A stretch of DNA of 64,000 nt from Ochrobactrum vermis (GTDB taxonomy: Bacteria > Pseudomonadota > Alphaproteobacteria > Rhizobiales > Rhizobiaceae). Shown here in pieces: positions 3,780-24,607 of this stretch (positions are counted from its first letter, which is position 1; each line of letters opens with the position of its first letter). Under the pieces are notes generated by a model. The model saw only the letters and a list, made by a program, of their open reading frames with translations. It did not search any database and was not told the DNA's origin. The DNA lies in assembly GCF_002975205.1 (NCBI RefSeq), contig NZ_PCOC01000002.1, positions 697,001 to 761,000 on the forward strand, written 5' to 3'. The position numbers and the translations under genes were made by a program.

Positions 3780-4067
3780 CTATTTGCGTAATTCGGCTTC
3801 GATCTGATCGAGAACCTGATCCTTGCCAATACCAGTCAGGAAGGGCAGGCCCTTGATGACGAGCTTGGTCACCGAAGCCGAGATCGGCGTGGTGGAAACG
3901 ATGAAATCTACATTGTCGGCCAACGAGGCAACTTCGGTTGCTTTCGCCTGCTGAGCATTGAAGGTAAGCCCGCGCTTTTTCATTTCTTCGGTCACGGTTG
4001 CATTCACTGCCGTCGATGTCGCTACACCTGTACCGCAAGCGAAGAGAATTGTTTTTATTCTAGCCAT
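3780..4067 (-). CDS. PTS EIIB component, galactitol (Gat) family
   Basis: This 95-aa protein starts at an ATG behind GGAGGAAACC; a TTG four codons upstream sits inside that ribosome site and is rejected. The P-loop ILFACGTGVATST holds the phosphorylated cysteine (Cys11), as in GatB-type EIIB proteins. It accepts phosphate from EIIA and passes it to the polyol as EIIC imports it. It is the last gene of the EIIC-EIIA-EIIB operon on this strand. The actual substrate may be a polyol other than galactitol, because no tagatose-pathway genes lie nearby. Confidence 0.88.
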   Translation of the reverse strand: MARIKTILFACGTGVATSTAVNATVTEEMKKRGLTFNAQQAKATEVASLADNVDFIVSTTPISASVTKLVIKGLPFLTGIGKDQVLDQIEAELRK

Positions 4068-4091
4068 GGTTTCCTCCAATGGTCGTGCATT

Positions 4092-4124
4092 TAGAGCGCG
4101 TTTCGATCTGATTGAATTAGATCG
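4092..4124. repeat. Partial intergenic mosaic (RIME-like) repeat
   Basis: The stretch TAGAGCGCGTTTCGATCTG followed by ATTGAATTAGATCG matches, in inverted orientation, the second module of the longer repeat at 15735-15832. It fills the gap between the EIIA and EIIB genes. Only part of the module is present. Repeats of this kind are dispersed in rhizobial and Brucella genomes. Confidence 0.6.
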
Positions 4125-4127
4125 TCT

Positions 4128-4589
4128 TTATTGCAGCGCGGTTTGAATGTCCTCAAGCGTGCGCGCCGCCTTCAACATGTCGAGTGCATCGGCATCCTGA
4201 ATGGTCGCCATGATCCGCTGCAAGGTCTCAATCTGTTTGTCCTTGTCATTGATGGCAAGCAGAAAGACATATCCAACAGAAACAGCTTCTTCAGGATCTT
4301 CCATATTGGCAAATTCAACTGGCGATTTCAGCGTTGCCAAGGCGATGCCGGCTTTGAGCACATGCTCAGGATCGGTATGCGGCACGGCAACATTCTCGTC
4401 GCGCTCAAGCGGCAATCCGGTCGGCATTGACAACTCGCGGCTTATGACGGCATCGGCATAGCTTGGCTTCACATAGCCAAGCTTTTCCAGCTTTCCCGCC
4501 AGAATCCGGATGATTTCTTCATTGGTTTTTGCGTCGCTCTGAAGCTCGATCGCTTGAGGGTCGAGAAAATCAATCAGACCAGCAGCCAT
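4128..4589 (-). CDS. PTS EIIA component, fructose/mannitol/galactitol family
   Basis: This 153-aa protein is a single EIIA(Fru/Mtl)-type domain. The phosphorylated histidine is His71 in NVAVPHTDPEHV, preceded by the family feature LSMPTGLPLER. It takes phosphate from HPr, probably the HPr-EI fusion encoded about 9 kb away, and passes it to the EIIB encoded next to it. It lies between the EIIC and EIIB genes and is translated from an ATG behind GGAGA. Confidence 0.88.
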   Translation of the reverse strand: MAAGLIDFLDPQAIELQSDAKTNEEIIRILAGKLEKLGYVKPSYADAVISRELSMPTGLPLERDENVAVPHTDPEHVLKAGIALATLKSPVEFANMEDPEEAVSVGYVFLLAINDKDKQIETLQRIMATIQDADALDMLKAARTLEDIQTALQ

Positions 4590-4666
4590 TCCATTCTCCG
4601 TTTAAAGAAGGTCGCACGCCGGTCTCGACGTGCGACTTGTATTTCATGCACCGATCAATGCCACCA

Positions 4667-6076
4667 TTAAGCGGCAATTTCGTCTGCAGGTTCGTCCTCG
4701 GCACCTGCAGCGCGTTCCCATGCCTGCGTATTGCGACGATAGAGCATGAAAAGTGCTGCAATAACAACGGCGATCACCGCGATACCAATAGCACCAAGCC
4801 ACTGGATGGCAGAGATGATGATGTACGGCACCCACAGGAATCCATCGACCACCGAAGTAATCTGCAAGGCGTTTTCAGGCAGCTTGAAGCCCGATGAGAC
4901 TGCAGCACTGGTGAACAATGGTGCAAGCGCATTGGCGACATAGAAGCCGATTGCCAGCGTGATCGTTCCCACGACAACCATGCGGAACACGTTTCCTTTC
5001 AGAAGCGGGGCGGTCATGGCGACGATGAAAGGAATGACGGCAAGATCGGCGAACAGGATCACGCGGTTGCCCGGCAGGATGACCGACAGGATAATCGCAA
5101 TCGGTACCAGAATGAGCGATGATGAAATCGCAGCCGGGTGTCCGATGAGGATTGCCGAGTCGAGGCCGACGAGAAGCTCGCGGTCACCGGTGCGTTTACG
5201 CACGAATTCCTGTGCGGCATCCGAAACTGGCAGCAAGCCTTCCATCAGGATTTTGACCATGCGCGGCAGAAGCAGCATTACGGCTGCAAGCGTCATGCCG
5301 GTGCCCAGAACCTTGGCAAGCACCGTGCCGAAGTCACCCGCATTATAGAATGCGATAAGACCGAGTACGAGACCGATGATCAGCCCCATCACAACCGGCT
5401 CACCAAAAACCCCAAAGCGGCGTTCGATGGTTTCGGTGTTGATGTTGATCTTGTTGATGCCGGGGATGCGGTCCATGATCCAGTTGAGCACGATCGCGAT
5501 TGGCAGGATCTGTGCGGAAGCCAGATGTGGCACCGAAACGCCGGGAATGCCATAGAATTGCTGAACAGCGCGCGCCGACCAGTCCGCGAACAGCAGGGAC
5601 AGAGCGGCAACAAGTGCTGCAACAATAATGCCGTAAGCGATATTATCGGTTGCTGCCACTACCAGCGAACCAACGAAGGCAAAGTGCCAGAAATTCCACA
5701 CATCGACATTCAGTGTTCGTGTCCAGCGCATTAGCAGAAGCGCTATATTGACCAGAATGCCGACCGGAATAACCCACAGGCCCACCGATGAGCCAAAGGC
5801 GATTGCCGCAGCGGAAGGCCAGCCCACGTCAACGATATCGCGCTTGATACCTGTATTGGTGACGATTGCCTGAGCCACTTCACCGATTGAGGTGAACATG
5901 AGGCCGAGCACCAGATTAATACCGATGAAAGCTACGCCGATGGTCACGGCCGCTCGGAAGGCTTTGCCCACTTTTGCGCCAAGCACCACTGCGATGATGA
6001 AGATCACGATAGGCAACAGAACTGTCGCCCCAAGTGTGTCGACTGCCGTTTTTAGTCCGCTCAGAAATGCGTCCAT
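4667..6076 (-). CDS. PTS EIIC component, galactitol (GatC) family
   Basis: This 469-aa polytopic membrane protein has about 10-12 hydrophobic segments. GatC-family features include the EVAQAIVTNTG region after the second segment and the LVGLDSAILIGHPAA region in the C-terminal half. It forms the channel that imports and phosphorylates a polyol together with the EIIA and EIIB encoded downstream. It is the first gene of the operon and is divergent from the DRL-family oxidoreductase; the shared 280-base gap holds two copies of GAACATTTGT. The family also serves galactitol, arabitol and other polyols, so the substrate is open. Confidence 0.88.
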   Translation of the reverse strand: MDAFLSGLKTAVDTLGATVLLPIVIFIIAVVLGAKVGKAFRAAVTIGVAFIGINLVLGLMFTSIGEVAQAIVTNTGIKRDIVDVGWPSAAAIAFGSSVGLWVIPVGILVNIALLLMRWTRTLNVDVWNFWHFAFVGSLVVAATDNIAYGIIVAALVAALSLLFADWSARAVQQFYGIPGVSVPHLASAQILPIAIVLNWIMDRIPGINKININTETIERRFGVFGEPVVMGLIIGLVLGLIAFYNAGDFGTVLAKVLGTGMTLAAVMLLLPRMVKILMEGLLPVSDAAQEFVRKRTGDRELLVGLDSAILIGHPAAISSSLILVPIAIILSVILPGNRVILFADLAVIPFIVAMTAPLLKGNVFRMVVVGTITLAIGFYVANALAPLFTSAAVSSGFKLPENALQITSVVDGFLWVPYIIISAIQWLGAIGIAVIAVVIAALFMLYRRNTQAWERAAGAEDEPADEIAA

Positions 6077-6183
6077 TTATTTCTCCTCCCCCCGGAACAC
6101 TCCCAAAGTGCGCCGAGCTAACAGAACGCCATTATTAGCTCGCACGTATCGACGTTTCAAAAAGTGAATTGTGCGAAACGGCA

Positions 6184-6293
6184 GAACATTTGTATTCTAT
6201 AGCAAACCAAAGTTGAATAACAAGATGGCATTTAAAGGGTGTATCCGACCGAGCTGAAAATGAACACTGGTATTGACTTAAAAACAAATGTTC
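6184..6293. promoter_or_regulatory. Divergent control region with inverted GAACATTTGT sites
   Basis: GAACATTTGT occurs at 6184-6193 and its exact reverse complement ACAAATGTTC at 6284-6293. A weaker copy, GAACACTGGT, starts near 6262. The second site lies just downstream of a TTGACT (6273-6278) that could be the -35 box of the rightward promoter, a position suited to a repressor. A further exact copy lies upstream of gutM at 18153. The likely binder is the SorC-type regulator encoded at 11119-12147 (inference). Confidence 0.55.
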
Positions 6294-6356
6294 ATTAATC
6301 GGTAGGGTAACAGAGGAGACTGCGAGAATTTTTGCAGGGACGTTCAGGAGGAAACG

Positions 6357-7676
6357 ATGGCAACCAATGTGGCGTTGACGGGTCTGGCGCGTGATATGCA
6401 GGCGCGGGCCGATAGTGGGCGACCAATCCGCATCGGACTGATTGGCTCAGGAGAAATGGGCACGGATATCGTCACACGCGTTGCGCATATGCCGGGTATC
6501 GAAGTTGGTGCTATCTCCGAGCTGCGTGTTCCCAATGCTCTGAAGGCTGTCGATATTGCCTTTCAGGAAGAAGGCCATGGCCGCGAGGTTTCGACCGCTT
6601 CCGATCTGACGGCCGCCATGGAAGCGCATAAAGTTGCCGTAACAGACAACGCCAATCTGATCCTCGAGAACGATCTCATCGATGTTGTGATCGATGCAAC
6701 GGGTGTTCCGGCTGTCGGTGCCGAGATCGGCCTGCGCGCTATGGAGCACGGCAAACATCTGGTTATGATGAATGTTGAAGCCGATGTGACAATCGGTGCT
6801 TATCTGAAAGCGGAAGCCGAGCGTCTTGGAGTCACCTATTCGCTGGGTGCTGGTGATGAGCCGTCATCCTGCATGGAGCTGATCGAGTTCGTAACCGCCA
6901 TGGGCCACCCGATTGTGGCCGCAGGCAAGGGCAAGAACAATCCGCTCAATATTGATGCGGTCCCTGATCAATATATGGAAGAAGCCACGCGCCGTAACAT
7001 GAACGTGCGCATGCTGGTGGAATTCGTCGATGGTTCAAAAACCATGGTCGAAATGGCTGCTATTGCGAATGCAACCGGTCTTGTCCCGGATAAGGCCGGC
7101 ATGCACGGCCCTGCTGCAACACTTGACCAGCTCAACAAGACACTGATCCCTGAAAAGGACGGCGGTGTGTTGTCCAAGATTGGTGTGGTTGATTATTCGA
7201 TCGGCAAAGGCGTAGCGCCTGGCGTGTTTGTCGTCGCCGACATGTCGCATCCTCGCATTTCCGAGCGCATGGAAGACCTGAAGATGGGCAAGGGTCCATA
7301 TTTCACGTTCCATCGCCCCTATCACCTGACCTCTCTTGAAGTGCCGCTCACCTGCGCTCGCGTTGTTCTTTACGGCAAGCCGGACATGGTTCCGCTTTCA
7401 AAGCCGGTCGCAGAAGTGGCAGCGGTGGCAAAGAAGGACATGCAGCCGGGCGAAAAGCTCGATGCCATTGGCGAATATTGCTACCGCGCATGGATCATGA
7501 CTTCGGGTGAGGCACGCAGCGCACATGCGATCCCTTGCGGGCTTCTGCAGGGTGGCAGCGTGACCAAGCCGATCAAGAAAGGTGAACTGATCACTTACGA
7601 TAATGCGGCTGTGGCTCCGGGTTCGAAGATTGCCGAACTGCGCGCGCGTCAAGACAAGCTCGTTTACGGAGCGTGA
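6357..7676 (+). CDS. DRL-family oxidoreductase (DXP reductoisomerase-like, SAF-domain)
   Basis: This 439-aa protein has an N-terminal Rossmann domain (GLIGSGEMGTDIV, residues about 24-36), a homoserine-dehydrogenase-like middle part with GAGDEPSSCMELIEF and AGKGKNNPLN, and a C-terminal SAF-like domain (KKDMQPGEKLDAIGEYC...IKKGELITYDNA). This is the layout of DRL, the enzyme known in Brucella to convert 1-deoxyxylulose 5-phosphate to 2-C-methylerythritol 4-phosphate in place of DXR. It starts behind AGGAGGAAACG. It is followed 12 bases later by acetoin-dehydrogenase-like genes and is divergent from a polyol PTS, which argues for a catabolic role, possibly running in the oxidative direction. 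Whether this copy is the biosynthetic DRL or a catabolic paralogue cannot be told from the sequence alone. Confidence 0.72.
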   Translation: MATNVALTGLARDMQARADSGRPIRIGLIGSGEMGTDIVTRVAHMPGIEVGAISELRVPNALKAVDIAFQEEGHGREVSTASDLTAAMEAHKVAVTDNANLILENDLIDVVIDATGVPAVGAEIGLRAMEHGKHLVMMNVEADVTIGAYLKAEAERLGVTYSLGAGDEPSSCMELIEFVTAMGHPIVAAGKGKNNPLNIDAVPDQYMEEATRRNMNVRMLVEFVDGSKTMVEMAAIANATGLVPDKAGMHGPAATLDQLNKTLIPEKDGGVLSKIGVVDYSIGKGVAPGVFVVADMSHPRISERMEDLKMGKGPYFTFHRPYHLTSLEVPLTCARVVLYGKPDMVPLSKPVAEVAAVAKKDMQPGEKLDAIGEYCYRAWIMTSGEARSAHAIPCGLLQGGSVTKPIKKGELITYDNAAVAPGSKIAELRARQDKLVYGA

Positions 7677-7688
7677 GGACAAAACATC

Positions 7689-8726
7689 ATGGTTCAAGCC
7701 AAAAAAATCGAACCGCAGGATACGGGCGACCGTCATAACTTGCCTTATGCCTTCCGCACCTACTCGCCCGATCAGCTGAAAGAAGCGCTGCATAAGATGT
7801 ATCTTATCCGTCGCTTTGAAGAGGGCGCGGAAGAAAGCTACACGCGCGGTCTTATTCACGGAACAATGCATCTTTCCATCGGGCAGGAAGCCAGCGCGAT
7901 GGGAACGTGTCTGCCGCTCAACGACGATGATATGATCACGTCGACCCATCGCGGCCACGGTCATTGCATCGCAAAGGGCGCAGACGTGAAGCGTATGTTT
8001 GCCGAGTTCTTCGGCAAGGAAACAGGCTATTGCAAAGGCCGTGGCGGCTCTATGCATATTGCTGATGTTTCCAAGGGAAACCTTGGAGCGAACGGTATTG
8101 TCGGTGGCGGTATTCCAATTGCGGTCGGTGCCGCCCTTTCCGCCAAGCAGCAGAAAAACGGCAAGGTTGTCGTGTCGTTCTTCGGGGATGGCGCAAACAA
8201 TGAGGGTGCTTTCCACGAAGCTCTCAATATGGCTTCTGTCTGGAAACTGCCTGTGGTTTTCGTTTGTGAAAACAACGGCTACGGCATGTCTACCTCCACC
8301 AAACGCTCGACGGCGGTTGCCAATGTCGCAGACCGTGCATCGGCCTATAACATGCCGGGCGTGATCGTGGACGGTAACAATCTGTCGGAAGTGGCGGAAG
8401 CCGTCAATGAAGCTACCGAACGCGCGCGGCGTGGCGATGGACCAACGCTGATTGAAAGCAAGACGTACCGCATTCGGGGGCATTCCAAGAGCGACCGCAA
8501 TCGCTATCGCACCAAGGAAGAAATCGAGCATTGGCAAAATGATCGCGATCCGATTGCGCATTTCGAGGCCGATTTGAAAGCCTATGGCTTCATCAACGAT
8601 GCCGAGATCGAGGCGATCCGCGCTGAGGTGGAGAAGGAAATCGCCGAGGCGATCGAGTTCGCCAAGAACAGCCCGGCACCCGATCTGACCAACCTGACCC
8701 GCGACGTTTACACGGACGATATTTGA
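7689..8726 (+). CDS. TPP-dependent dehydrogenase E1 alpha subunit, acetoin dehydrogenase (AcoA) type
   Basis: This 345-aa protein matches E1-alpha subunits of acetoin/pyruvate dehydrogenases. It shows the regions [19 protein letters not shown] and the thiamine-diphosphate motif [17 protein letters not shown] ending near ENNGYG. With the beta subunit it decarboxylates or cleaves a 2-oxo or acetoin-like substrate and transfers the two-carbon acyl unit to the lipoyl group of the E2 encoded two genes downstream. The gene order E1alpha-E1beta-E2 with a hydrolase-type E2 points to the acetoin rather than the pyruvate family. The real substrate may be a 1-deoxyketose phosphate (inference from the DRL and PTS neighbours). 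Confidence 0.88.
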
Positions 8727-8728
8727 AC

Positions 8729-9727
8729 ATGGACACGACAATCCGTGAGTTGAGCTATTCGCAAGCTATCCAGGAAGCAATGGCAATTGCCATGGAACGC
8801 GACGACCGCGTATTTCTGATGGGTGAAGATATTGGCGTCTATGGCGGCGCATTTCAGGTGACTGGTGATCTGGTGCATCGCTTCGGTGAAGACCGGGTCA
8901 TGGATACGCCGATTTCAGAACTGGGCGGCGCTGGTGTTGCTGTCGGTGCAGCACTGACCGGTATGCGTCCGATCTTTGAGTTTCAGTTCTCTGACTTTGC
9001 CGCGCTGGCGATGGAACAGATCGTCAATCAGGCCGCAAAAATCCGCTACATGCTTGGGGGGGCAGTTTCGGTGCCGCTGGTGATGCGCTTTCCGGCAGGT
9101 TCTGGAACGGGCGCTGCGGCACAGCACAGCCAAAGCCTTGAGGCATGGCTTGGCCATGTACCGGGCCTCAAAGTTTTGCAGCCTGCGACACCTTATGACG
9201 CCAAGGGCATGTTGCTTGCAGCTGTTGAAGATCCTGATCCGGTTATGATTTTCGAGCACAAGCTGCTCTACAAGACCAAAGGTCCGGTTCCTGAAGGCTT
9301 CTACACTGTGCCCATCGGTAAGGCGGAAGTGGTTCGCGAGGGTCGCGATCTGACCATCGTTGCGACGGCGATCATGGTTCACAAGGCGCTTGATGCGGCT
9401 GCCGAACTTGCCAGGGAAGGCATTGATGTTGAAGTGATCGATCTGCGCACAGTGCGTCCGATTGATCGCGAAACCATCATTAAAAGCGTCAAGAAGACGT
9501 CGAAGCTTCTTTGCGTTTATGAAGCCGTGAAAACCCTTGGCATTGGTGCTGAAATCTCTGCGATCGTGGCGGAAAGTGAGGCCTTCGACTATCTCGATGC
9601 GCCAATCGTCCGTCTAGGCGGCGCCGAAACTCCAATTCCTTATAATCCCGACCTTGAACGCGCGACGGTTCCACAGGTGCCCGATATCCTGAAAAGTGCT
9701 CGTGATCTGGCCAAGGGAGTGCGCTGA
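8729..9727 (+). CDS. TPP-dependent dehydrogenase E1 beta subunit, acetoin dehydrogenase (AcoB) type
   Basis: This 332-aa transketolase-like beta subunit has typical blocks: [53 protein letters not shown] and a C-terminal transketolase domain with [11 protein letters not shown]. The ATG at 8729 lies two bases after the alpha-subunit stop; an in-frame TTG at 8723 overlapping that stop is less likely. The alpha and beta subunits form the E1 heterotetramer. Confidence 0.88.
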
Positions 9728-9729
9728 CC

Positions 9730-11067
9730 ATGGCTGTGGAAGTCATTCTCCCCAAGGTCGATATGGATATGGAGACGGGACAGATTTCGCGATGGTACGC
9801 CAAGGATGGCGATACTGTCACGAAAGGCCAGCTTCTCTTTGAAATCGAGACCGACAAGGCCGCGATGGAAGTCGATGCGCCGGCATCGGGCATCATCGCA
9901 GACATCAGCGCTTCTGAAGGGACAGTTGTGCCAGTTGGTCATACGGTGGCCTGGATTTATGCTGAAGGCGAAGAGCGCAACGGCAAATCGGCTCCTGCCA
10001 TTGAAGAACCGATTGTTGCCGCACCCGTTGAAACGGTCATCGAACCGACAATTTCAAAACAGGCCGAACCCAAGTCCTCCCAAGACGATGATGCGGGTTC
10101 AGCCAACGATGTGCGGGCAACGCCGCTTGCTCGTCGGCTTGCGCGGGAAGCAGGGATTGATCTGACGTCCATTCAGGGTTCAGGCCCGAAGGGCCGCGTG
10201 CAGAAGAAGGACATTGAGGGCAATATCAGCGTCGCGAAGCCGGTAGCTGCGGTGGCCGCTAAATCGCCTGCAAGCAAAGATGCCGAACCTTCGGCTCTTG
10301 GACAGCTCAACGCTGTTTGGTTGCGGGAGGGGGACGCAGGCCGTCTGCCGATTGTCCTGCTTCACGGCTTTGCGGCTGATCTGAATTCGTGGCGTGGATT
10401 GTTTGCCGGGGCATCGCTCGGTCATCCGATCCTGGCAATCGATCTTCCCGGACACGGCAATTCACCACGTGCCGTTCCTGAAAGCATTGATGATATTGCT
10501 GTTGCTGTGGAGACGACGCTGGCATCCCTGGGCGTGACGTCGTGCTTGTTGGCCGGTCACTCCCTCGGCGGAGCTGTCGCGACTGTCACGGCGGCACGCG
10601 GTGTTGTCGATGTACGTTCCTTGCTGCTGATTTCGTCAGGTGGCCTGGGACCGCAGATCAATGGCGCATTTATAAAAGGTCTTGTCGGCGCGAAAAGCGA
10701 AGCCAGTATCGTTCCCTGGCTGAAGCTGCTCGTTACTGACGAGAGCCGTCTGACGAAGCCGTTCATCAACGCAACCGTTGCTCAAGCTTTCGACGCAGAA
10801 CTGCGCAACACGCAGGAAGCGATTGGCGCCCGCTTGTTTGCAGATGGCACGCAGACCTTTGAGGTTCGCTCAAGCATTGCCACGCTTGCGATGCCAGTGC
10901 GGCTTATCTTCGGTGCCGAAGACCGCGTTATCCCGGTTGCCCATGCTCATGGCTTGCCGGGTAAAGTGGGGGTCCACATTTTTGCAGGTTGCGGACATAT
11001 GCCACAAATCGAAGAACGGGCTGCCGTGCTGCAAATTCTTAAAGAGTGTGCTGCCGCAGCCAATTGA
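9730..11067 (+). CDS. Lipoyl E2 with C-terminal alpha/beta hydrolase (AcoC type)
   Basis: This 445-aa protein has three parts. Residues about 1-78 are a lipoyl domain with the lipoylated lysine in ETDKAAMEV. Residues about 130-165 are a peripheral-subunit-binding domain (ATPLARRLAREAGID...GSGPKGRV). Residues about 190-445 are an alpha/beta hydrolase with the nucleophile elbow GHSLGGA and a late GCGHMPQIEE histidine. The usual chloramphenicol-acetyltransferase-like E2 core is absent, as in acetoin dehydrogenase E2 proteins, so the hydrolase fold replaces it. The start is two bases after the E1-beta stop behind AAGGGAG. No E3 (dihydrolipoamide dehydrogenase) gene is in the window, so E3 must be shared. 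Confidence 0.87.
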   Translation: MAVEVILPKVDMDMETGQISRWYAKDGDTVTKGQLLFEIETDKAAMEVDAPASGIIADISASEGTVVPVGHTVAWIYAEGEERNGKSAPAIEEPIVAAPVETVIEPTISKQAEPKSSQDDDAGSANDVRATPLARRLAREAGIDLTSIQGSGPKGRVQKKDIEGNISVAKPVAAVAAKSPASKDAEPSALGQLNAVWLREGDAGRLPIVLLHGFAADLNSWRGLFAGASLGHPILAIDLPGHGNSPRAVPESIDDIAVAVETTLASLGVTSCLLAGHSLGGAVATVTAARGVVDVRSLLLISSGGLGPQINGAFIKGLVGAKSEASIVPWLKLLVTDESRLTKPFINATVAQAFDAELRNTQEAIGARLFADGTQTFEVRSSIATLAMPVRLIFGAEDRVIPVAHAHGLPGKVGVHIFAGCGHMPQIEERAAVLQILKECAAAAN

Positions 11068-11082
11068 TGCGGTAATGAAAAG

Positions 11083-11112
11083 AAAGCACATCGTTTTACG
11101 ACGATGTGCTTT
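11083..11112. terminator. Rho-independent terminator, probably bidirectional
   Basis: Twelve-base perfect stem (AAAGCACATCGT / ACGATGTGCTTT) with a 6-base loop and a following T run. It lies between the convergent E2 and SorC-type regulator genes, and the A run on the other side allows use from both strands. Confidence 0.85.
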
Positions 11113-11118
11113 TTGCTG

Positions 11119-12147
11119 TTACTCTGATTGCGTCTTGTCTTTGAGCATCTGCGCGGCACTTTCCTCATCAGTGATGAGAACTGTCGGCTTCAAAAGCTCG
11201 ACTGCGCCAAGCAGTGCTGCGATCTTCTCTTTGCCGCCTGATGTAAGAATACGCTGCGGCGTCTTCTGAAGGCTCTCGATTTTGGCCGACATAACACGGT
11301 CATGCACCGGATCATCGACGATCTTGCCGCTCTTGTCATAGAAGTGGAACAGCACGTCACCGACAGCACCATTTTCGATGAGCGACAGTTTCTGCGCCTC
11401 ATCGATCAGGCCCACACGATAAGACGTGCTGCTCGCAGTCTGAATATCACCGACGCTGAGTAGAACCATGTCGAGTTCTTCGGCCATGTCCAGCACAGTA
11501 TTCAACCCACAACGCTCGATAAGAGCGATCCGCGTTTCTTTGCTGTCGACCAGTGCGGGGGCGGGGATCAGATAGCCTTCGCCCTGAAAAATCTGCGCAA
11601 ACTGCCAGGCAAATTCCGGTGGGTTTGAGCGACGCGGCTGTACGATGCCGCCGAGTAGAGAGATAACTTTCAAGTCATTGAGCGGGCGTGCACCGATATG
11701 TTGCAAAGTGCTGGAAAGGGTACGCCCCCAGCCCACGCCGATCGTCATGCCGTGCTGCACTTTTTCCGAAAGATAGGCGCCGGTGGCAGCACTGATCGGC
11801 GGAATCGGATCGATGTCGGGCGAAGAGAGCGGCGCGACAATGGCGCGCTCAAGACAGAAGGTCTTCTCAAGCTGAACTTCCAATGATGTCAGACTTGCCA
11901 GCTTGCCTTCGATAGTAATCTTTACTTCATTTCGAGCGCGGGCATCGGCAAGAAGGCGAACGATCGTGACACGGCCGACACCAAGCGCTTCCGCGATGTC
12001 GTTCTGGGTCATCTGCTCGACGTAATACATCCACGCCGCGCGTGTTCTCAACCGGCTTGTACGGTTTTCAGCAGCCACACCTTCCGATCCAATGACGAGG
12101 TCTGTTGCTTCCGGATTTTTCTGCGTCTTCTTGCCGGCTTTTTTCAA
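11119..12147 (-). CDS. SorC/DeoR-type sugar-binding transcriptional regulator
   Basis: This 342-aa protein has an N-terminal helix-turn-helix (residues about 40-75; MTQNDIAEALGVGRVTIVRLLADAR) followed by a SorC-type sugar-phosphate-binding domain with GVGWGRTLSSTLQHI. Such proteins sense phosphorylated sugars or polyols made by a PTS. It starts at a TTG behind GAGGGA; no better ATG precedes the helix-turn-helix. It lies between the DRL/E1/E2 operon and the second PTS operon, and is the most likely reader of the GAACATTTGT sites in front of both. Confidence 0.85.
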   Translation of the reverse strand: MKKAGKKTQKNPEATDLVIGSEGVAAENRTSRLRTRAAWMYYVEQMTQNDIAEALGVGRVTIVRLLADARARNEVKITIEGKLASLTSLEVQLEKTFCLERAIVAPLSSPDIDPIPPISAATGAYLSEKVQHGMTIGVGWGRTLSSTLQHIGARPLNDLKVISLLGGIVQPRRSNPPEFAWQFAQIFQGEGYLIPAPALVDSKETRIALIERCGLNTVLDMAEELDMVLLSVGDIQTASSTSYRVGLIDEAQKLSLIENGAVGDVLFHFYDKSGKIVDDPVHDRVMSAKIESLQKTPQRILTSGGKEKIAALLGAVELLKPTVLITDEESAAQMLKDKTQSE

Positions 12148-12294
12148 AGCTATCCCTCAAATTAATGGCGTATTATTGCACTATAGAAACGCTGTTCTTA
12201 CACCGAAACTATTGCTTTTCCACGCGAAGGCAAACAATAATTCATGTGCTTGGTGCATCCTGTTATGATGGCGCTGTAGTTGAGGAAAATGAAT

Positions 12295-13080
12295 ATGTTA
12301 CGCACTCTTTCGGAAGAAATTGCAGTCAATCTGAAGGACCGCCTGCGCGAGGTTCGATACATGATTCGTCGCAATCGCCATGAAAGTTTGCAGGGCGAGC
12401 AGGCGGCGGTGCGTCCTGGCGAAATCGTATCGCCGGAATTGTTGCTGGGACATGCGGCGAGCATGATGGACAAGGCGCTGACGACGGCTGAAACAATTTC
12501 GATTTCACTGATTTCGTCGAACCCAAATGTGCATAACAGCGCACCGCATGTAAAAAGCCTGTCGGTTTATTTCAGCGCTGGCGCCGAGGGTGTTCGGGCT
12601 TTTCGTAAGGATATGTATTATCTCACGAAGGAAGTACTCCGCCGCCATCAGTTGCAGAATGTGCTGATTCAGGAAGCCACGTTTGTGACGGTCCATGCCA
12701 GGATGGTGCAAAAGCACGGCTCGTTGCTGAAGAGTGTGTTTTCTGCAGAAGCAGGTGAAACGAAAATCGCGGCAACGGCCAAAGCTGTTGCAGCCATGTT
12801 TCTGGAACTGCTTGGCGAAAGGCCTGTGCGATTTATCTCGATGGACGGGCATTGCGACCCTCAGACTCTGCGCAAATTTGAAGCGACTTGCTTTGCGGCA
12901 GTTGGTGTTGCCTGTGGTCTGGCAACTGCAAAAGCGGCAGATCTGGCGGGCGTCGATCCTTTGGAAAGTGCAATTCTGGCACTGGATGCGCGACATGATC
13001 GTCTCATGCAGGCGGCAGAAGACCGCGATCAGGCACAGCTCGAAAGATTGTTCCAGACCTTAATTGCTCATCTTCCGTAA
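12295..13080 (+). CDS. Conserved-looking protein of unknown function in PTS locus
   Basis: I do not recognise this 261-aa protein. It has no obvious signal peptide or membrane segment and looks mostly helical. Visible features are an Arg-rich start (LKDRLREVRYMIRRNR), a ...RFISMDGHCDPQTLRKFEATCFAAVG stretch and a C-terminus rich in Ala, Asp and Arg. The ATG at 12295 is best spaced from the AGGA ribosome site; ATG 12289 and TTG 12280 are alternatives. It is divergent from the SorC regulator (147 bases between) and convergent with the HPr-EI gene, so it may belong to the PTS regulon, but nothing in the sequence gives its job. Confidence 0.7.
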   Translation: MLRTLSEEIAVNLKDRLREVRYMIRRNRHESLQGEQAAVRPGEIVSPELLLGHAASMMDKALTTAETISISLISSNPNVHNSAPHVKSLSVYFSAGAEGVRAFRKDMYYLTKEVLRRHQLQNVLIQEATFVTVHARMVQKHGSLLKSVFSAEAGETKIAATAKAVAAMFLELLGERPVRFISMDGHCDPQTLRKFEATCFAAVGVACGLATAKAADLAGVDPLESAILALDARHDRLMQAAEDRDQAQLERLFQTLIAHLP

Positions 13081-13088
13081 GGAAAAGC

Positions 13089-13106
13089 CCGGATATGGCT
13101 ATCCGG
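13089..13106. terminator. Short hairpin between convergent genes
   Basis: Seven-base stem CCGGATA / TATCCGG with a TGGC loop, in the 55-base gap between the unknown gene and the end of HPr-EI. It has only a weak T stretch, so it is a modest candidate terminator. Confidence 0.4.
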
Positions 13107-13135
13107 ACCTTTAACAGGTGCTTCGCGGGCGAAGT

Positions 13136-15124
13136 CTAACTTCCAAACATATCTGCGATAAGCTTTTTTGCGCGGGGGATTGAAGCCGGACTCATGCTGA
13201 GTTCGGTCAGGCCCATACGCAGGAATTCGCCGATAAGCTCCGGCTTGCCGGCAGCTTCACCGCACATGCCGACCATGATACCTGCTTCTGTCCCCGCTTT
13301 TGCGGTCATCTCGATTGCAGCCATTACGGCTGGGTGGCTGACGTCGTTGAGTTTCGCAACGGTCGGGTTGAGCCGATCCGCAGCCATCACATACTGCGTC
13401 AGATCATTGGTGCCGATGGAAAAGAAGGCTGCTTCTTTTGCGAGTTCTCGGGCAGCGAAAACCGCCGCGGGAGTCTCGATCATCACGCCAAGGTCAAACT
13501 CGGCAAAGGCCTTGCCTTCGGTTTCAAGCTCAGTGATGCAGTCCGCGATAAGATGCTTGGTTGCACGGATTTCTTCAACATCCGAAACCATCGGCAACAT
13601 CACTTTGAGATTGCCGTTGACCGCTGAGCGCAACAGCGCCCGCAACTGCGGCTTGAACACATCCGGGCGGTCCAGACACATGCGAATGCCGCGCCAGCCA
13701 AGGAACGGGTTTTCCTCTTCGGGAAATTCGACGCCGGCAATCGGCTTGTCACCGCCGATATCCAGCGTGCGCACGATAACCGGGTTTGGCGCAAAAGCTT
13801 TCAGAAGTGCCGTATAGGTTTCTGTCTGCATATCTTCGGAAGGCAGGTGAATGTGCTTCATGAAGAGAAGTTCGGTGCGGAAAAGTCCGACCCCCATCGC
13901 ACCGGCTTCGAGTGCTACATCGATCTCTTCCAGCGCACCCATATTGGCTGCGACTTCGATGATTGTTCCGTCGGCCCGACGCGGCGTGATGGAGCGGTAA
14001 GCATCCAGCGTCTGCTTTTCCTGCAATGCTTTGGAAATGCGCGCTTCGATTTCGTTACGGGTTGCGTCATCCGGATCGGAGTGAACGATGCCGAAACTTC
14101 CGTCCACGGCTACGGTTTTGGCATTCTTGAGTTGTTGAACTGCACTTCCAAGGCCAAGAACCGCAGGTATGCCGTGCGTGCGTGCAATGATGGCCACATG
14201 CGATGTCGCGCCGCCATGACCGCAGACGACGCCGCTGATTTTCTTCAGTGGTGCGCGCGCCAGATCCCAGGCGCCGATGTCTTCGGCGATGAGTACGGAG
14301 CCTTCCGGCAGTCCTTCCAGATTGATGTCTTCCTTGCCAAGCAGAGCAAGACAAATCTGGCGGCTGACAGCGTGAACATCATCTGCGCGCGCATTAAGAT
14401 ATGGATCGTCGAGTGCTGCAAATTGACCTGCTACAGTTGAAGCTGCGGCGAGCATTGCGGAAATGCCATCCAGACCGCCGCGAATAAGCGCAAGCGCTTC
14501 GTCAGTCAGACTGTCATCTGCAGCAATATCCTTCAATGCAGCGATGATACCCCTATCAGTGTCGGCGAGATCGCCGCTGGAGAGGGAAGCATCCATGCGT
14601 TGTTGCACTGTTGCGATAGCCGATCTGAAGTGGGCAATCTCCGCGTCTATTTCAGAAGCCGCAAGCTTCCGGCCTAAAGGTTTGATTTCTTCGGGAAAAA
14701 ACGGAAACGCTGTTCCTAAAGAAATACCTTCGCTGGCCCCCACGCCTTTTATCTGACCTGCGGGAAGCGTTATCGTCATTGCAGGCCGAGCATCGGGGGG
14801 AGACGTGGTTTCGACTTGAGGGGCAGCCGTGGGAACAGGGCTAGCCGGTGTGTTGGTTTCTTCGAGGCCAGCCTGTGGGTTTTCCAGATAGCCGATCAGG
14901 GCCTCAATGGCTTCAATCGCGTCTGCCCCATTGGCGCGAACGGTCACTTCATCGAGCTCTTTCACGCCAAGCAGCATCAGTTTGACGGAACTTTTGGCGC
15001 TTACGCTTTTCCCGGCTTTGGCAATTTCGATATCACTTTCAAAACCCTTGGCCAGTTTAACGAAGCGAGTTGCAGGGCGCGCATGCAGCCCTTCGTGCAC
15101 CCGGACGATAGTCGAGCGTTCCAT
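13136..15124 (-). CDS. HPr-Enzyme I fusion (PTS phosphoenolpyruvate-protein phosphotransferase)
   Basis: This 662-aa protein joins an HPr domain (residues 1-90, phosphorylated His14 in GLHARPAT) through a Pro/Thr-rich linker to a complete Enzyme I. The EI part shows GGATSHVAIIART with the phospho-histidine, the FRTELLFM and MIETPAA blocks, SIGTNDLTQY and the GMCGEAAG active-site cysteine motif. It has no N-terminal GAF domain, so it is not the EI-Ntr type common in alphaproteobacteria. It draws phosphate from PEP and probably feeds both EII sets in this locus. It is the last gene of the gutM-EIIC-EIIB-EIIA series, 108 bases after EIIA. Confidence 0.92.
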   Translation of the reverse strand: MERSTIVRVHEGLHARPATRFVKLAKGFESDIEIAKAGKSVSAKSSVKLMLLGVKELDEVTVRANGADAIEAIEALIGYLENPQAGLEETNTPASPVPTAAPQVETTSPPDARPAMTITLPAGQIKGVGASEGISLGTAFPFFPEEIKPLGRKLAASEIDAEIAHFRSAIATVQQRMDASLSSGDLADTDRGIIAALKDIAADDSLTDEALALIRGGLDGISAMLAAASTVAGQFAALDDPYLNARADDVHAVSRQICLALLGKEDINLEGLPEGSVLIAEDIGAWDLARAPLKKISGVVCGHGGATSHVAIIARTHGIPAVLGLGSAVQQLKNAKTVAVDGSFGIVHSDPDDATRNEIEARISKALQEKQTLDAYRSITPRRADGTIIEVAANMGALEEIDVALEAGAMGVGLFRTELLFMKHIHLPSEDMQTETYTALLKAFAPNPVIVRTLDIGGDKPIAGVEFPEEENPFLGWRGIRMCLDRPDVFKPQLRALLRSAVNGNLKVMLPMVSDVEEIRATKHLIADCITELETEGKAFAEFDLGVMIETPAAVFAARELAKEAAFFSIGTNDLTQYVMAADRLNPTVAKLNDVSHPAVMAAIEMTAKAGTEAGIMVGMCGEAAGKPELIGEFLRMGLTELSMSPASIPRAKKLIADMFGS

Positions 15125-15232
15125 TTATGTAAGCCTCAAATCGACATCTGAAACATTCCGACATCGGTGATGTGGAAACCCATTCCAGTTGTCTGTTTTA
15201 ACACGCAAATCCAAATCGATGTGTGGCCAGTC

Positions 15233-15613
15233 TCAGCCGCCGATGGTGATGATCTGCCCTTCTTTGAGAGCAGCGACAAGCTCCTCGCCTGCTATTTCGC
15301 TGGCACAGATTTCACCTGGGCGGTCTGTCGAATCCGCGCCTGTGAATGAAATAACGACATGTCCGATTTCGCGCACTTTCTGCCAGGCACTTTCGCCAAC
15401 CGCGGTGATTTGCGCGTTCAGCGAGCCTATCGTGATCTGTGCTCCAATGGCGGGAGCCGATGCTTCCGGACCTTCTTCCACAACGTGAAGAACAGATACT
15501 TCTGCCAATTCAGGCGGCGACCCGTCGGCAAACAGGATGAGAACGCCGCCTTCGGCGAGATCCGCGACTTCCGGGCCGATCGCGGTGATCCGCGTTTTCA
15601 GATGTATCGACAT
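15233..15613 (-). CDS. PTS EIIA component, glucitol/sorbitol (SrlB/GutB) family
   Basis: This 126-aa protein starts at an ATG behind AAGGA; a longer reading frame extends 40 codons upstream but lacks family similarity. The likely phosphorylated histidine is His43 (VSVLHVVEEG), the same position as in E. coli SrlB, and the C-terminal half shows the family pattern ...VREIGHVVISFTG. It passes phosphate from HPr to the EIIB encoded upstream. It is separated from the EIIB gene by a mosaic repeat. Confidence 0.88.
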   Translation of the reverse strand: MSIHLKTRITAIGPEVADLAEGGVLILFADGSPPELAEVSVLHVVEEGPEASAPAIGAQITIGSLNAQITAVGESAWQKVREIGHVVISFTGADSTDRPGEICASEIAGEELVAALKEGQIITIGG

Positions 15614-15734
15614 AGAAGCGGTCCTTTCTTGGTATGGTCGTTCGATGCTCGGGAAATCGATTGGGGCATCTTGTTGCACATGTTTGGGCGATTGCCTGCC
15701 GCCGCTTTTGCCGCGGCAGGCTGAGAGCTTCAAA

Positions 15735-15832
15735 GCGCATCCCGAAAAGTGTGAAACGGTTTTCGGGTAAGATGCGCGTCCAAAAAGTATCTAGAGCGCC
15801 GATCTGGTTCAATCAGATCGAAACGCGCTCTA
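15735..15832. repeat. Two-module intergenic mosaic (RIME-like) repeat
   Basis: The first module (15735-15777) is a hairpin bounded by GCGCATC and GATGCGC, with CCGAAAA / TTTTCGG inside. The second (15792-15832) is bounded by TAGAGCGC and GCGCTCTA, with CGATCTG / CAGATCG inside. A partial copy of the second module is at 4092-4124. The end of the second module overlaps the stop codon of the glucitol EIIB gene. Such palindromic modules are dispersed between genes in Rhizobiales. Confidence 0.7.
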
Positions 15833-16813
15833 AAGCACGGCGAGGCTGACAAGCCATGCGATCAGAACCGAAAGCGGGCCCATGATCTGACGGCTGATCA
15901 GAACTGCAGGTACACCAATTTCGATGGTCTTGGGCTTGGCTTCTCCGAGCGCCAGACCAACCGGCACGAAGTCGCAACCGACCTGTGTGTTGTAGGCAAA
16001 CAGTGCGGGCAGGGCCATCGCCGGAGCGATTGTTCCGTTTGCGATCTGCGGTCCGATGATTGCCACGCCGACAACCTGCGCGATAACCGCACCCGGTCCG
16101 AGAATTGGCGACAGGAACGGCAAGCCGCAAATTGCGGAAAGCACAAGCAAGCCGACAATGTTATTGGCAAGCGGTCCGAGCGGCTGAGCAAGGATGTCGC
16201 CGATACCCGTGTAGAGGATCAGGCCGATCAACATGGTCACGAATGCCATGAATGGCAGAACGTTACGGATAACCTGATCGATTGTGCGGCGTCCGGCCTG
16301 GAAGAAGATGCCAACCACACGGCCCATCACGCGACCGATGCTGCTGATAAGGCCGACAATGCCGCCTTCGCTTGGTAGTTCTACCGGCGCAGGCGTGTCT
16401 TCTTCAACCGTCGCAGCAGCAGGGGCGGCGGCTGAGCCATCAGCAGGAACGATGTTTTCCGGCTTCACACCCGACACGTAAATGTCTTCGGTAATGAACT
16501 GTGCCAGCGGTCCAGACTGTCCAACCGGCGTGATGTTCACCGTTGGAATACGCTTGCGTGGATAGACGCCGCAACGGGCTGTGCCGCCGCAATCGACAAC
16601 CACGACTGCCATTTCGCTTTCGATCGGCGGCGAGCGGAAACCGTCAACGGCTTCTGCGCCGGTCAGCTCGGCAATCCGGCGCGCAAGCGGATGAATGCCT
16701 CCGCCGGTGACCGATACAACTTTGCTGCGCTGCTCGGTCGGCTGAATGACCAGCGGGCCGCCCCAACCGTTGGAGCCGCGGGAAATCTTAACTGCCTTAT
16801 AGGTCTTCACCAT
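15830..16813 (-). CDS. PTS EIIB component, glucitol/sorbitol (SrlE) family
   Basis: This 327-aa protein has an N-terminal cytosolic EIIB domain with the phosphocysteine motif VVDCGGTARCGVYPRKRIPT, then a membrane half with FFQAGRRTIDQVIRNVLPFMAFV and LGPGAVIAQVVG. The layout and many residues match E. coli SrlE closely as I remember it. It starts behind GGGGAGG. With EIIC (next gene upstream) and EIIA it imports and phosphorylates a hexitol-like polyol. The stop codon lies inside a mosaic repeat, so the extreme C-terminus may have been reshaped. Confidence 0.92.
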   Translation of the reverse strand: MVKTYKAVKISRGSNGWGGPLVIQPTEQRSKVVSVTGGGIHPLARRIAELTGAEAVDGFRSPPIESEMAVVVVDCGGTARCGVYPRKRIPTVNITPVGQSGPLAQFITEDIYVSGVKPENIVPADGSAAAPAAATVEEDTPAPVELPSEGGIVGLISSIGRVMGRVVGIFFQAGRRTIDQVIRNVLPFMAFVTMLIGLILYTGIGDILAQPLGPLANNIVGLLVLSAICGLPFLSPILGPGAVIAQVVGVAIIGPQIANGTIAPAMALPALFAYNTQVGCDFVPVGLALGEAKPKTIEIGVPAVLISRQIMGPLSVLIAWLVSLAVL

Positions 16814-16834
16814 GTCGTCCTCCCCAATTCCCGC

Positions 16835-17620
16835 TTAAAGCTCAATGCCCTGACGCCGCGCCATAATGGCGGTGATGCGTTCAGTAAGCATGCCTTTAAG
16901 GAGGATCACGACGAGACCCACGATGGCGTACCAGATGGCGACGTTGATGTGATAACCTGTTGGAACTGCGCCCTTCTTCTCAAGTTCGAGAAGGGCAACG
17001 AGTACACCACCCCAGACGAAATATTCGCCCGGATTGATATGCGGGAAAAGACCCAGCGGCGGATGGACGTAGGATACAGCTGCATCGTAGAAAGCAGGCT
17101 TGTATTTCTCGTCCAGGAACGAACCGAATGTATAAGCCATCGGGTTGGTCAGGAAGAAGACCGAAAGAACAGGCAGAACCGTGTAGCGGGTGAGCGCAAT
17201 ACGTCCGGCGCTGCGTGCAATACCATGGACGCGCTTTTCACCGACCAATTCGGTTACGGCATAGAAGGCGGTCATCAGCACGACGAGGGTCGGGATGATG
17301 CCCGTTACAAACCCCGCAAAAACTTCGCCGCCCTTCTGGAAAACGCCAATGAAGTGCTTGCCGATTGAGGCAAGCCAGCCGAGCTGTTCTTCCTGCTGAA
17401 CGTTCTGAAGTCGTTCCTTGAACTGATCGACTGTAATTCCGCCGCTGCCAGCATCGCCCGGCGCGGTGGTCGTTGCTTGCGCAAGCTGCAGTAGATCATT
17501 TCCCGCGTGCTCTGCGGCATGTTTGCCATGCAGTGCGGCATCGGAAATCATACTGCCAGCCATATGGATAGATTGCATTGTTACGTCGGCATGTTGTGCC
17601 AACATCGTCACTATCGACAT
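16835..17620 (-). CDS. PTS EIIC component, glucitol/sorbitol (SrlA) family, with N-terminal extension
   Basis: The ATG at 17620 follows GAGGAGG and gives 261 aa, against about 187 aa for E. coli SrlA. The family core starts near residue 90 (IGVFQKGGEVFAGFVTGIIPTL) and continues with EKYKPAFYDAA and GLFPHINPGEYFV. The first 85 or so residues are an extra region rich in Ala, His and Gln (AEHAGNDLLQLAQATTTAP), without clear membrane segments. The gene lies between gutM and the EIIB gene. Confidence 0.9.
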   Translation of the reverse strand: MSIVTMLAQHADVTMQSIHMAGSMISDAALHGKHAAEHAGNDLLQLAQATTTAPGDAGSGGITVDQFKERLQNVQQEEQLGWLASIGKHFIGVFQKGGEVFAGFVTGIIPTLVVLMTAFYAVTELVGEKRVHGIARSAGRIALTRYTVLPVLSVFFLTNPMAYTFGSFLDEKYKPAFYDAAVSYVHPPLGLFPHINPGEYFVWGGVLVALLELEKKGAVPTGYHINVAIWYAIVGLVVILLKGMLTERITAIMARRQGIEL

Positions 17621-17657
17621 TGTTCCTCCTCGATTGCTTGTTTCAGGCAAGCAACTC

Positions 17658-18089
17658 CTATGCTCCCACTGCCTTCAGACCTTCGAGTTCGATCCCATCG
17701 GATTGATCTCTGATGCGACCGATCTGCTCCAGCGCCTGTTGCGCGGCAGCCACCACTTCAGGCGTTCCTTCTCCAATTGCCGGATTGCCCTGTAATTCGC
17801 TGAGGTGCATTCCCTCGAAGCCTTCGCGACGGATGAATTTTGCAAAAACCGTGCGTCCGCTCATCTGCAGGAAGCGTCGCACCACCAGGTCGCGGTCTAC
17901 GACGATCAATACGATGACGCCTTTTCCGAAGCGTGCCCGTATGTGTCCCGCACCAACAAAACCGTCAGAATATTTCGAAGTGATGCCTTTCATCACATCG
18001 GAATAGTGGCGCATCTGGAACCAGACGCCGAGCGACTGAAAGCCCCACAGCAAGGCGAGCGCCAGCAAGGCCCACTGCCAGATAGCCAT
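17658..18089 (-). CDS. gutM: GutM-family glucitol operon activator
   Basis: This 143-aa protein has one N-terminal membrane segment (WALLALALLWGFQSLGVWFQMRHYSDVM) followed by a small basic cytoplasmic part (SDGFVGAGHIRARFGKGVIVLIVVD). This is the GutM/SrlM family named from the E. coli glucitol operon, where it affects operon expression. Here it is the first gene of the second PTS operon, behind GGGAGGAG. The molecular role of the family is poorly understood. Confidence 0.82.
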   Translation of the reverse strand: MAIWQWALLALALLWGFQSLGVWFQMRHYSDVMKGITSKYSDGFVGAGHIRARFGKGVIVLIVVDRDLVVRRFLQMSGRTVFAKFIRREGFEGMHLSELQGNPAIGEGTPEVVAAAQQALEQIGRIRDQSDGIELEGLKAVGA

Positions 18090-18152
18090 AATTGTTCTCC
18101 TCCCAAGAAGGACGAATAGGATATTTCTCTCGTTCGTCTTTCATTAAATAGA

Positions 18153-18162
18153 GAACATTTGT
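18153..18162. promoter_or_regulatory. GAACATTTGT operator copy upstream of gutM
   Basis: Exact copy of the 10-base word found twice in the galactitol-PTS/DRL divergent region, 64 bases upstream of the gutM start. Flanking bases (a T-rich tail TNTT on one side) are also similar. Confidence 0.55.
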
Positions 18163-18273
18163 CTTCTTGAATGTCAATATGTATAATTTTTTCTGCTAAA
18201 CGAAGGCGAATGACGACTGACATCTCGATCGGTTTCGCATAATGTCATTTGCAACCCGGAGGCCGCTCGCACC

Positions 18274-18909
18274 ATGGACTTGCTACTCAGAGAACAAATG
18301 GCATCGATGCCTGATTTGCGTCATCGACTGCGTCAGCTACGTTGGTTCAGGGCGACATTCCGCAAGCATGCCAGTCTGCTGCATGAACTTTATGGCGTTG
18401 AATATGACATCGATGAAAAGAAGCTTACCGAGGCGTTTCTGAACTGGGTGGAGCTGGTCAATCAGAACAAGCGTTTTGCCAAGGTGGACCGCAAAGACTT
18501 CATCACCTTTGCTGCCGGTCTCGTGCTGCGCGAATTGATCCGTTTGTCGCCTGCAAGGGTCGTTTCTCCACCAAAACACGCCACGGGCGATGCTGCCCGT
18601 CTTTATGAGATCGTCAGCTTCTGGCCGGAGGGTTTTCTCTACACCAATTACTGTATCTGTGCGATTGCCGCTGTGCAGGAACAGGAGTTCGGCACGGTAC
18701 CGGATATCGACCAATGTGCCGACGAATTACGCACCTGGTGGTCTTATAAGGAAAACATCTCTGAAATGCCTGGTTATGCGATTGCATTTCTCGATAAGTT
18801 TCTTGGTGGCGAGCCCAACTGGGTCATGCCGGATCTGGCATCGGCGCGTGCAGCAGTGAAGCGCGCTTTGGGTGCTGATAATCCGGTCACAAAAATCAAG
18901 AATGAATAG
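18274..18909 (+). CDS. Conserved-looking protein of unknown function, 211 aa
   Basis: I do not recognise a family. The protein is soluble-looking and helical, with a basic start (RHRLRQLRWFRATFRKH), a central SFWPEGFLYTNYCICAIAAVQEQEFG segment and a Trp-rich stretch (ELRTWWSYKENISEMPGYAIAFLDKFLGGEPNW). Base composition and codon use resemble its neighbours, so it is very likely a real gene. It is divergent from gutM, with 184 bases between them containing the GAACATTTGT site, and may share its control. Confidence 0.75.
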   Translation: MDLLLREQMASMPDLRHRLRQLRWFRATFRKHASLLHELYGVEYDIDEKKLTEAFLNWVELVNQNKRFAKVDRKDFITFAAGLVLRELIRLSPARVVSPPKHATGDAARLYEIVSFWPEGFLYTNYCICAIAAVQEQEFGTVPDIDQCADELRTWWSYKENISEMPGYAIAFLDKFLGGEPNWVMPDLASARAAVKRALGADNPVTKIKNE

Positions 18910-24373: not shown

Positions 24374-24607
24374 GGCTGTTCCTCGCTTGATGTTTGGGGC
24401 CGACCCGTTCGGACCCCGTTTCAACATCGTCATTCTGAGGGACAGCCACCTATCTCGCTACAATCTCGGAAGAGCCGGCCCATTACGGCATCTAACATCC
24501 GATCTTCGCATTGCCTTGAGTAATCATAGTCGACCATTAATCTCTCACGACAATAGCCGCGATGCACGCCCACCGCGTCTCATCCCAAATGCGAACGCCC
24601 CCCTTAA
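24374..24607 (-). other. Non-coding stretch upstream of the IS110 transposase, candidate bridge-RNA region
   Basis: About 230 bases lie between the transposase start and the end of the giant gene. IS110 elements of the IS110 group carry a structured bridge RNA in the non-coding end before the transposase. The position and length fit, but I could not identify the guide loops or the left end of the element from sequence alone. Confidence 0.35.

Follow-up and report, generated by a model that had tools for sequence, protein, structure and literature searches.

Why should an oxidoreductase of the DXR-II (DRL) family, known from isoprenoid synthesis in Brucella, be encoded between two polyol-type phosphotransferase systems (PTS) and directly before an acetoin-dehydrogenase-like E1/E2 pair? 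The question is raised by positions 3780–18909 of a 64,000-nucleotide stretch of Ochrobactrum vermis DNA (the window; contig NZ_PCOC01000002.1, positions 697,001 to 761,000), which is part of C2, the second large contig (2.3 Mb) of a 5.4-Mb genome, and for which the nearest named proteins among the 120 matches listed came from Ochrobactrum and Brucella intermedia. The locus holds a genuine catabolic module that is conserved and, to the extent of the searches made, new to the literature. It probably forms, with appreciable room left for other readings, a regulon for the catabolism of a methyl-branched polyol, most likely 2-C-methyl-D-erythritol, by way of 2-C-methyl-D-erythritol 4-phosphate (MEP), 1-deoxyxylulose 5-phosphate (DXP) and acetyl-CoA. 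A catabolic role had been suggested in an initial annotation made from the letters alone, and is strongly supported by the paralogy of the DRL, the recurrence of the gene set across phyla and a motif unique to the two promoters of the locus.

Four genes are laid out as a single operon on the + strand: the DRL (6357–7676; PF21135), E1α of an acyloin/2-oxoacid dehydrogenase-like complex (7689–8726; PF00676, E1_dh) after a spacing of 12 bp, E1β (8723–9727; PF02779/PF02780, Transket_pyr/C) with a 4-bp overlap, and, 2 bp further on, an AcoC-type E2 with lipoyl, E3-binding and α/β hydrolase domains (9730–11067; NF011457, PF00364, PF02817, PF12697). A Gat-type PTS diverges from this operon on the − strand, with IIC (EIIC-GAT, 4667–6076; PF03611, TIGR00827 under its cut-off), IIA (4128–4589; PF00359, EIIA_2) and IIB (3780–4079; PF02302, NF007643). 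Beyond E2 come, likewise on the − strand, a SorC-family sugar-binding regulator (11119–12147; PF04198), an HPr-EI fusion (13136–15124; PF00381, PF05524, PF00391, PF02896), which is likely the phosphate donor to both PTS, and a Gut-type PTS consisting of IIA (15233–15733; PF03829), IIB(C) (15830–16813; PF03612, PF07663), IIC (16835–17650; PF03608) and GutM (17658–18089; PF06923). Every part that the initial annotation had placed together here was thus confirmed, in position, by family matches. The grouping is not a matter of chance, because the set recurs in other phyla and both PTS promoters have a 14-bp motif in common.

The window DRL scored 227.4 bits against DRL_cat (PF21135; cut-off 27, E = 1.2e-67) and was aligned to the solved Brucella DXR-II/DRL (PDB 3upl, 3upy) without gaps across residues 1–435 of 3upl, and residue numbers therefore agree. 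The residues named for the Brucella enzyme in an excerpt of PMC3847144 were all retained, namely the substrate-anchoring K191, K193 and T229 and the dimer-cavity residues E174, F178, R320 and Y322. The cofactor site was changed: where the Brucella enzyme ends strand β2 with the NADP-type pair A55-R56, the window DRL has E55-L56. In Rossmann enzymes, an acidic residue at the end of β2 favours NAD(H) and a basic one NADP(H). In a genome search, two DRL_cat proteins were found, the window copy and one on C1, and no DXR-I was found. The two copies are 75% identical; the C1 copy keeps A55-R56 within an A-R-R stretch and scored 884.6 bits against the Brucella enzyme, the window copy 724.4 bits. The window copy is therefore not the sole DRL, a case that the initial annotation had kept in view, and it differs from the Brucella enzyme in its E-L pair, in its operon with PTS, E1 and E2, and in having the closer Brucella orthologue separate from it on C1. 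Because the β2-end pair differs and the C1 copy is closer to the Brucella enzyme, isoprenoid synthesis is likely the task of the latter copy, a clear orthologue of Brucella DXR-II, and the window copy, a member of the DXR-II family though not of its biosynthetic type, is likely a paralogue that has specialised. Additional functional DXR-II paralogues have been reported for O. anthropi and M. loti (excerpt of PMC3847144), and one of the two O. anthropi copies would be the orthologue of the window DRL.

The β2-end pair was followed through a comparison set of 167 distinct DRLs, in which a DRL was called NAD-type if it carried [DE][LIVM] at window positions 55–56 and E1/E2-linked if at least two of E1α, E1β and E2 lay within 8 kb. 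The NAD-type pair was present in all 65 E1/E2-linked DRLs, in 30 of the 32 linked to a PTS only and in 10/10 linked to kinase and ABC genes, that is in 105 of 107 DRLs with such neighbours vs 18 of 60 others (Fisher p ~1e-22, not tree-corrected). On a DRL tree built without the cofactor-pair columns, the trait changed 13 times, and among 11 independent tree pairs linkage and NAD-type agreed in 8.2 on average and were opposite in 0 (median sign-test p 0.008). Of the two PTS-linked DRLs of the other type, L111 lies in tandem with a linked copy that is NAD-type, and L184 adjoins a Gat PTS and FSA. At L120 (7836–11302), a DRL that is not NAD-type comes straight after the genes of an IspE-type GHMP kinase and an IspDF fusion; this is a clear biosynthetic context, and the pair is as expected of a biosynthetic enzyme. 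The context is mixed in Paenibacillus thalictri (L144, 8166–9260), where IspG lies shortly before an NAD-type DRL and E1/E2 follow further on.

Counterparts of the module are found in Bacillota, Chloroflexota, Actinomycetota and Alphaproteobacteria, so that the cluster, which the initial annotation proposed to look for elsewhere, is present in at least four phyla, including genomes without DXR-I and IspG. Loci from the same bacterial family and order keep the succession DRL-E1α-E1β-E2, some of them on named plasmids of Rhizobium and Sinorhizobium, and Rhizobium rhododendri carries the full set of GatCAB, Gut PTS, HPr-EI, SorC and DRL-E1-E2. A scan of genome contigs with the DRL alignment, of which the best 79 loci of a longer list were considered, gave mainly Bacillota, plus Chloroflexota and Actinomycetota; a Gut PTS with DRL and E1/E2(/E3) is common among these (Virgibacillus, Lentibacillus, Planococcus, Salibacterium, Marinococcus, Brevibacillus, Thermovorax). 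Across the 167 DRLs, 65 lie with E1/E2, 71 with a Gut PTS and 41 with both. Twelve E1/E2-linked DRLs lack a Gut PTS and have an ABC importer with a kinase, examples being those of S. meliloti Rm41, R. sophoriradicis and S. chiapasense; the kinase at L075 was confirmed as PfkB. On a Priestia plasmid, the DRL is accompanied by Gut PTS, E1/E2/E3, an FGGY kinase and an MFS transporter. The shared theme of the loci is polyol import, phosphorylation, DRL and E1/E2. The full set is not common to all near relatives: in Phyllobacterium zundukense (L074, 9326–15320), the DRL is 89% identical to that of the window but follows an Rbs-type ABC importer, and neither E1/E2 nor a PTS was found close by. A class II FBP aldolase at L077/L078 fits triose phosphate as a pathway product; a chemotaxis receptor, which maybe senses the polyol, adjoins the same two clusters (L077 21513–24026, L078 21508–24027). 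A thiamine synthesis operon (L076, 20817–26026) and a lipoyl synthase gene (L075, 20247–21215) lie beside other clusters and would fit as suppliers of E1/E2 cofactors.

The E1 encoded in these clusters is set apart from its paralogues. In 15 genomes, cluster E1β was 59–87% identical to that of the window, even across phyla, other E1β 37–54%. In a joined E1α/E1β tree, from a set that included no proven AcoA, one clade (SH-aLRT 96) took in 61 of the 64 cluster rows, all except L139, L150 and L162, and none of the 20 paralogues. Five positions of E1α separate the groups: 59 (Thr in 66/67 cluster sequences; Phe in 15/20 paralogues), 87 (His in 67/67 vs 6/20), 114 (Tyr in 67/67 vs 3/20), 131 (Asn in 64/67 vs 0/20) and 267 (Lys, Arg or His in 67/67 vs at most 2/20). 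In the alignment to the human chain, the counterpart of position 59 is Phe61, that of 87 is Tyr89, and that of 267 directly follows Ser264 (numbers of the mature protein, as deduced from that chain). An excerpt of PMC6168537 lists Phe61 and Tyr89 as catalytic-site residues and describes an interaction of the phosphate on Ser264 with the active-site His263. The cluster E1 thus forms a separate subfamily with changed active-site residues, whose pocket would be more polar and would carry an added positive charge at the entrance, both of which would be called for by a sugar phosphate.

Towards the acetoin dehydrogenase complex (AcoABC), the likeness lies in the E2, which exceeded the NCBIfam AcoC cut-off (NF011457, 427.4 bits vs 307), in the expected cleavage of a CH3-CO-CHOH-R group, and in STHRGHGHCIAKG and GANGIVGGG, which the window E1α has in common with the paralogues L210/L214, presumably AcoA. 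A difference would lie in the cluster E1, which forms a clade apart from those paralogues, with T59, Y114, N131 and a basic residue 267, and whose proposed substrate is phosphorylated. Like 1-deoxyxylulose 5-phosphate synthase, to which E1β is distantly related (TIGR00204, 72.9 bits, cut-off 466), E1 is a thiamine enzyme and would act on the same C2–C3 bond; unlike the synthase, it would run as a cleavage with a lipoyl acceptor. According to an excerpt of PMC3424233, pyruvate dehydrogenase E1 joins pyruvate and glyceraldehyde to 1-deoxyxylulose, and cellular DXP is raised by aceE mutants; DXP chemistry is therefore within reach of the E1 family.

A 14-bp pattern, GAACATTTGTNTTC, was taken from the two promoters and matched at exactly 2 places in the genome (6184 and 18153), both of them divergent promoters of the locus; the reversed control gave 0. 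The first match, operator-like GAACATTTGTATTC (6184–6197, +), lies between gatC and the DRL, where a further copy with 1 mismatch was found at 6280–6293 (−), and the second, GAACATTTGTCTTC (18153–18166, +), between gutM and the gene at 18274. The 10-mer GAACATTTGT occurred 3 times in the window vs 0.13 in shuffles. It or its complement precedes gutM in L035 and L037–L040, both gatC and gutM in L076, and gatC in L068, and a 9-base form precedes the gene of an ABC binding protein in L041, L046 and L077, so that some form of it was present in 10 of 19 loci examined. Because the motif is common to both promoters, occurs nowhere else in the genome and recurs at these loci, a single regulon probably takes in both PTS operons along with that of the DRL. 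The initial annotation had named a sole essential DRL with no induction link to the PTS genes as a case against catabolism; a regulatory link is here predicted from the motif. An inverted repeat with a T run at 11083–11114, between the ends of E2 and sorC, is likely a terminator common to both. Two + strand genes accompany the operons, one at 12280–13080 without a family match and with similar frames in just 2 compared loci (L198, L071), the other at 18274–18909, conserved in the alphaproteobacterial module and possibly of a Fic/Doc-like fold. An IS110-family transposase gene lies downstream of the region (23342–24433).

In the proposed pathway, HPr-EI would relay phosphate from phosphoenolpyruvate to the Gut-type PTS, by which the polyol would be brought in as its phosphate (MEP), the Gat-type PTS perhaps serving a related polyol or isomer. 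The DRL would use NAD+ to oxidise and rearrange MEP to DXP, thereby running against the direction taken by its biosynthetic sister. On E1, thiamine diphosphate would accept the CH3-CO unit from DXP, with release of glyceraldehyde 3-phosphate, and E2, with an E3 encoded elsewhere, would convert the unit to acetyl-CoA and NADH. The SorC-type regulator probably switches the operons via GAACATTTGTNTTC. Methylerythritol would be the best fit as the polyol; plants accumulate it and its glucosides (excerpt of PMC11192765), and bacteria that live on roots and leaves could plausibly obtain them there. The initial annotation knew of no route of this kind, and no described methylerythritol catabolic route was found in the literature searched either.

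The same logic could be served by another 2-C-branched tetritol or 1-deoxy-pentitol phosphate, which the DRL would convert to another 1-deoxyketose phosphate for cleavage by E1/E2 to acetyl-CoA and an aldehyde phosphate. Two PTS types that share a motif suggest more than one substrate, and the DRL family is widely divergent. However, the catalytic residues are unchanged in the window DRL, and MEP/DXP chemistry is within reach, because a dxr mutant can be rescued with enzymes of this clade and the additional O. anthropi and M. loti paralogues are functional (excerpt of PMC3847144); a different polyol is accordingly regarded as unlikely, though it is the foremost competitor of methylerythritol.

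Several observations weigh against the methylerythritol route. The equilibrium of the DXR reaction favours MEP. The NAD-type pair is also found in 18 of the 60 unlinked DRLs. The window E2 has an α/β hydrolase and not an acyltransferase domain; among 62 cluster E2s, the hydrolase is present in 9 and the acyltransferase in 53. An E2 of the hydrolase kind may release either acetyl-CoA or acetate. The PTS parts, moreover, score as sorbitol/galactitol types, with SrlE at 449.7 bits (cut-off 400) and SrlA at 188.5 (cut-off 150) in NCBIfam, as they would if the locus were an ordinary sorbitol or galactitol uptake locus next to an acetoin dehydrogenase. GutM, IIC, IIB(C) and IIA are indeed those of a sorbitol (gut/srl) operon, and in Listeria a gut operon holding a SAF-domain gene, whose genes fall together in a ccpC mutant, was read by its authors as serving sorbitol use (excerpt of PMC11176438). 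In contrast to such operons, no sorbitol- or galactitol-phosphate dehydrogenase, nor any sugar-phosphate dehydrogenase other than the DRL, was found among the frames annotated in 3780–18909, where DRL, E1/E2 and a dedicated HPr-EI stand instead; the cluster E1s form their own clade, and E1 adjoins the DRL in other phyla too. An ordinary sorbitol locus is therefore held to be very improbable.

The 32 PTS-linked DRLs without E1/E2 within 8 kb also count against the route; a Gut PTS with DRL and no E1/E2 nearby is found in many Bacillota (Listeria, Enterococcus, Bacillus pumilus group). Some PTS-linked DRLs adjoin transaldolase-type FSA and transketolase, others kinase, MtnA-like and class II aldolase genes, none of which a DXP product would need. 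An Enterococcus locus (L151, 6488–9474) has an APH-type kinase, an MtnA-like IF-2B protein and a class II aldolase upstream of DRL-Gut PTS, a set that we take to resemble one for 5-deoxyribose salvage. In Ligilactobacillus salivarius (L083, 16919–19578), FSA/transaldolase and transketolase follow a DRL-Gut PTS operon with SorC, hinting at xylulose 5-phosphate as the product in that branch, and in Domibacillus (L149) FSA and transketolase lie between two DRLs. From these loci a hydroxy analogue of the pathway can be drawn, in which an apiitol-type polyol phosphate would be converted by the DRL to xylulose 5-phosphate for transketolase and transaldolase, with glycoloyl-CoA formed in E1-linked clusters. 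Such genes are present in few loci, however, vs E1/E2 at 65 of 167 DRLs, and E1/E2 of the pyruvate and acetoin dehydrogenase type make acetyl groups, which renders the analogue improbable.

Isoprenoid genes, surveyed in 65 genomes (the hosts of 45 among the 79 genome-contig loci, plus 20 others), supply evidence for the catabolic reading, from genomes with no apparent need of a biosynthetic DRL, as well as a last objection to it. DXR-I was found in 31 and IspG in 54 of these, and neither in 10 (the hosts of L087, L088, L108, L118, L139, L146, L151, L153, L156 and L162), all with a linked DRL and 8 with HMG-CoA reductase. The ten comprise five isolates that use the mevalonate pathway (Virgibacillus subterraneus, Lentibacillus halodurans and three Enterococcus), each with HMG-CoA reductase, and five metagenome bins, in one of which (G312) a strong IspD match (4.4e-68) and the lack of HMG-CoA reductase suggest that missing genes may reflect incompleteness. 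IspG without DXR-I was found in 24 genomes, 17 of them with at least two DRLs. In seven (G264, G068, G208, G228, G183, G313, G247), every DRL found is NAD-type, and the linked DRL may therefore serve isoprenoid synthesis too, unless an unseen enzyme does; HMG-CoA reductase was present in G247 and not found in G264, G068, G208, G228 and G313. These seven, and the MEP-forming capacity reported for O. anthropi and M. loti paralogues (excerpt of PMC3847144), would favour the view that the DRL is a mere duplicate of the isoprenoid enzyme and that its position next to genes for a polyol PTS and an acetoin dehydrogenase is accidental. That view, already disfavoured, has hardly any probability left in the face of conservation over phyla, the cofactor switch, the genomes without DXR-I and IspG, and the shared motif.

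The methylerythritol pathway would, if true, constitute a microbial sink for plant-derived methylerythritol and its glucosides and would extend the pyruvate/acetoin dehydrogenase complexes by a member that cleaves a sugar phosphate. It would also account for active DXR-II in bacteria without the MEP pathway; a working DXR-II has been reported for Chloroflexus, which has the mevalonate (MVA) pathway only, and for Finegoldia, in which no MEP or MVA genes were found according to an excerpt of PMC3847144. The wider reading as a whole, with the Brucella-type isoprenoid DRLs as recruits from a catabolic family, is given a little better than an even chance. Because this isoprenoid shortcut has been proposed for antibacterial drug screening (excerpt of PMC3847144), it matters to tell catabolic from biosynthetic DRLs, and the two-residue cofactor rule offers a simple discriminator of linked, probably catabolic DRLs from biosynthetic ones. 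The pathway, if true, would also correct, in many genomes, annotations such as 'homoserine dehydrogenase', 'SAF domain protein', 'sorbitol PTS' and 'pyruvate dehydrogenase'.

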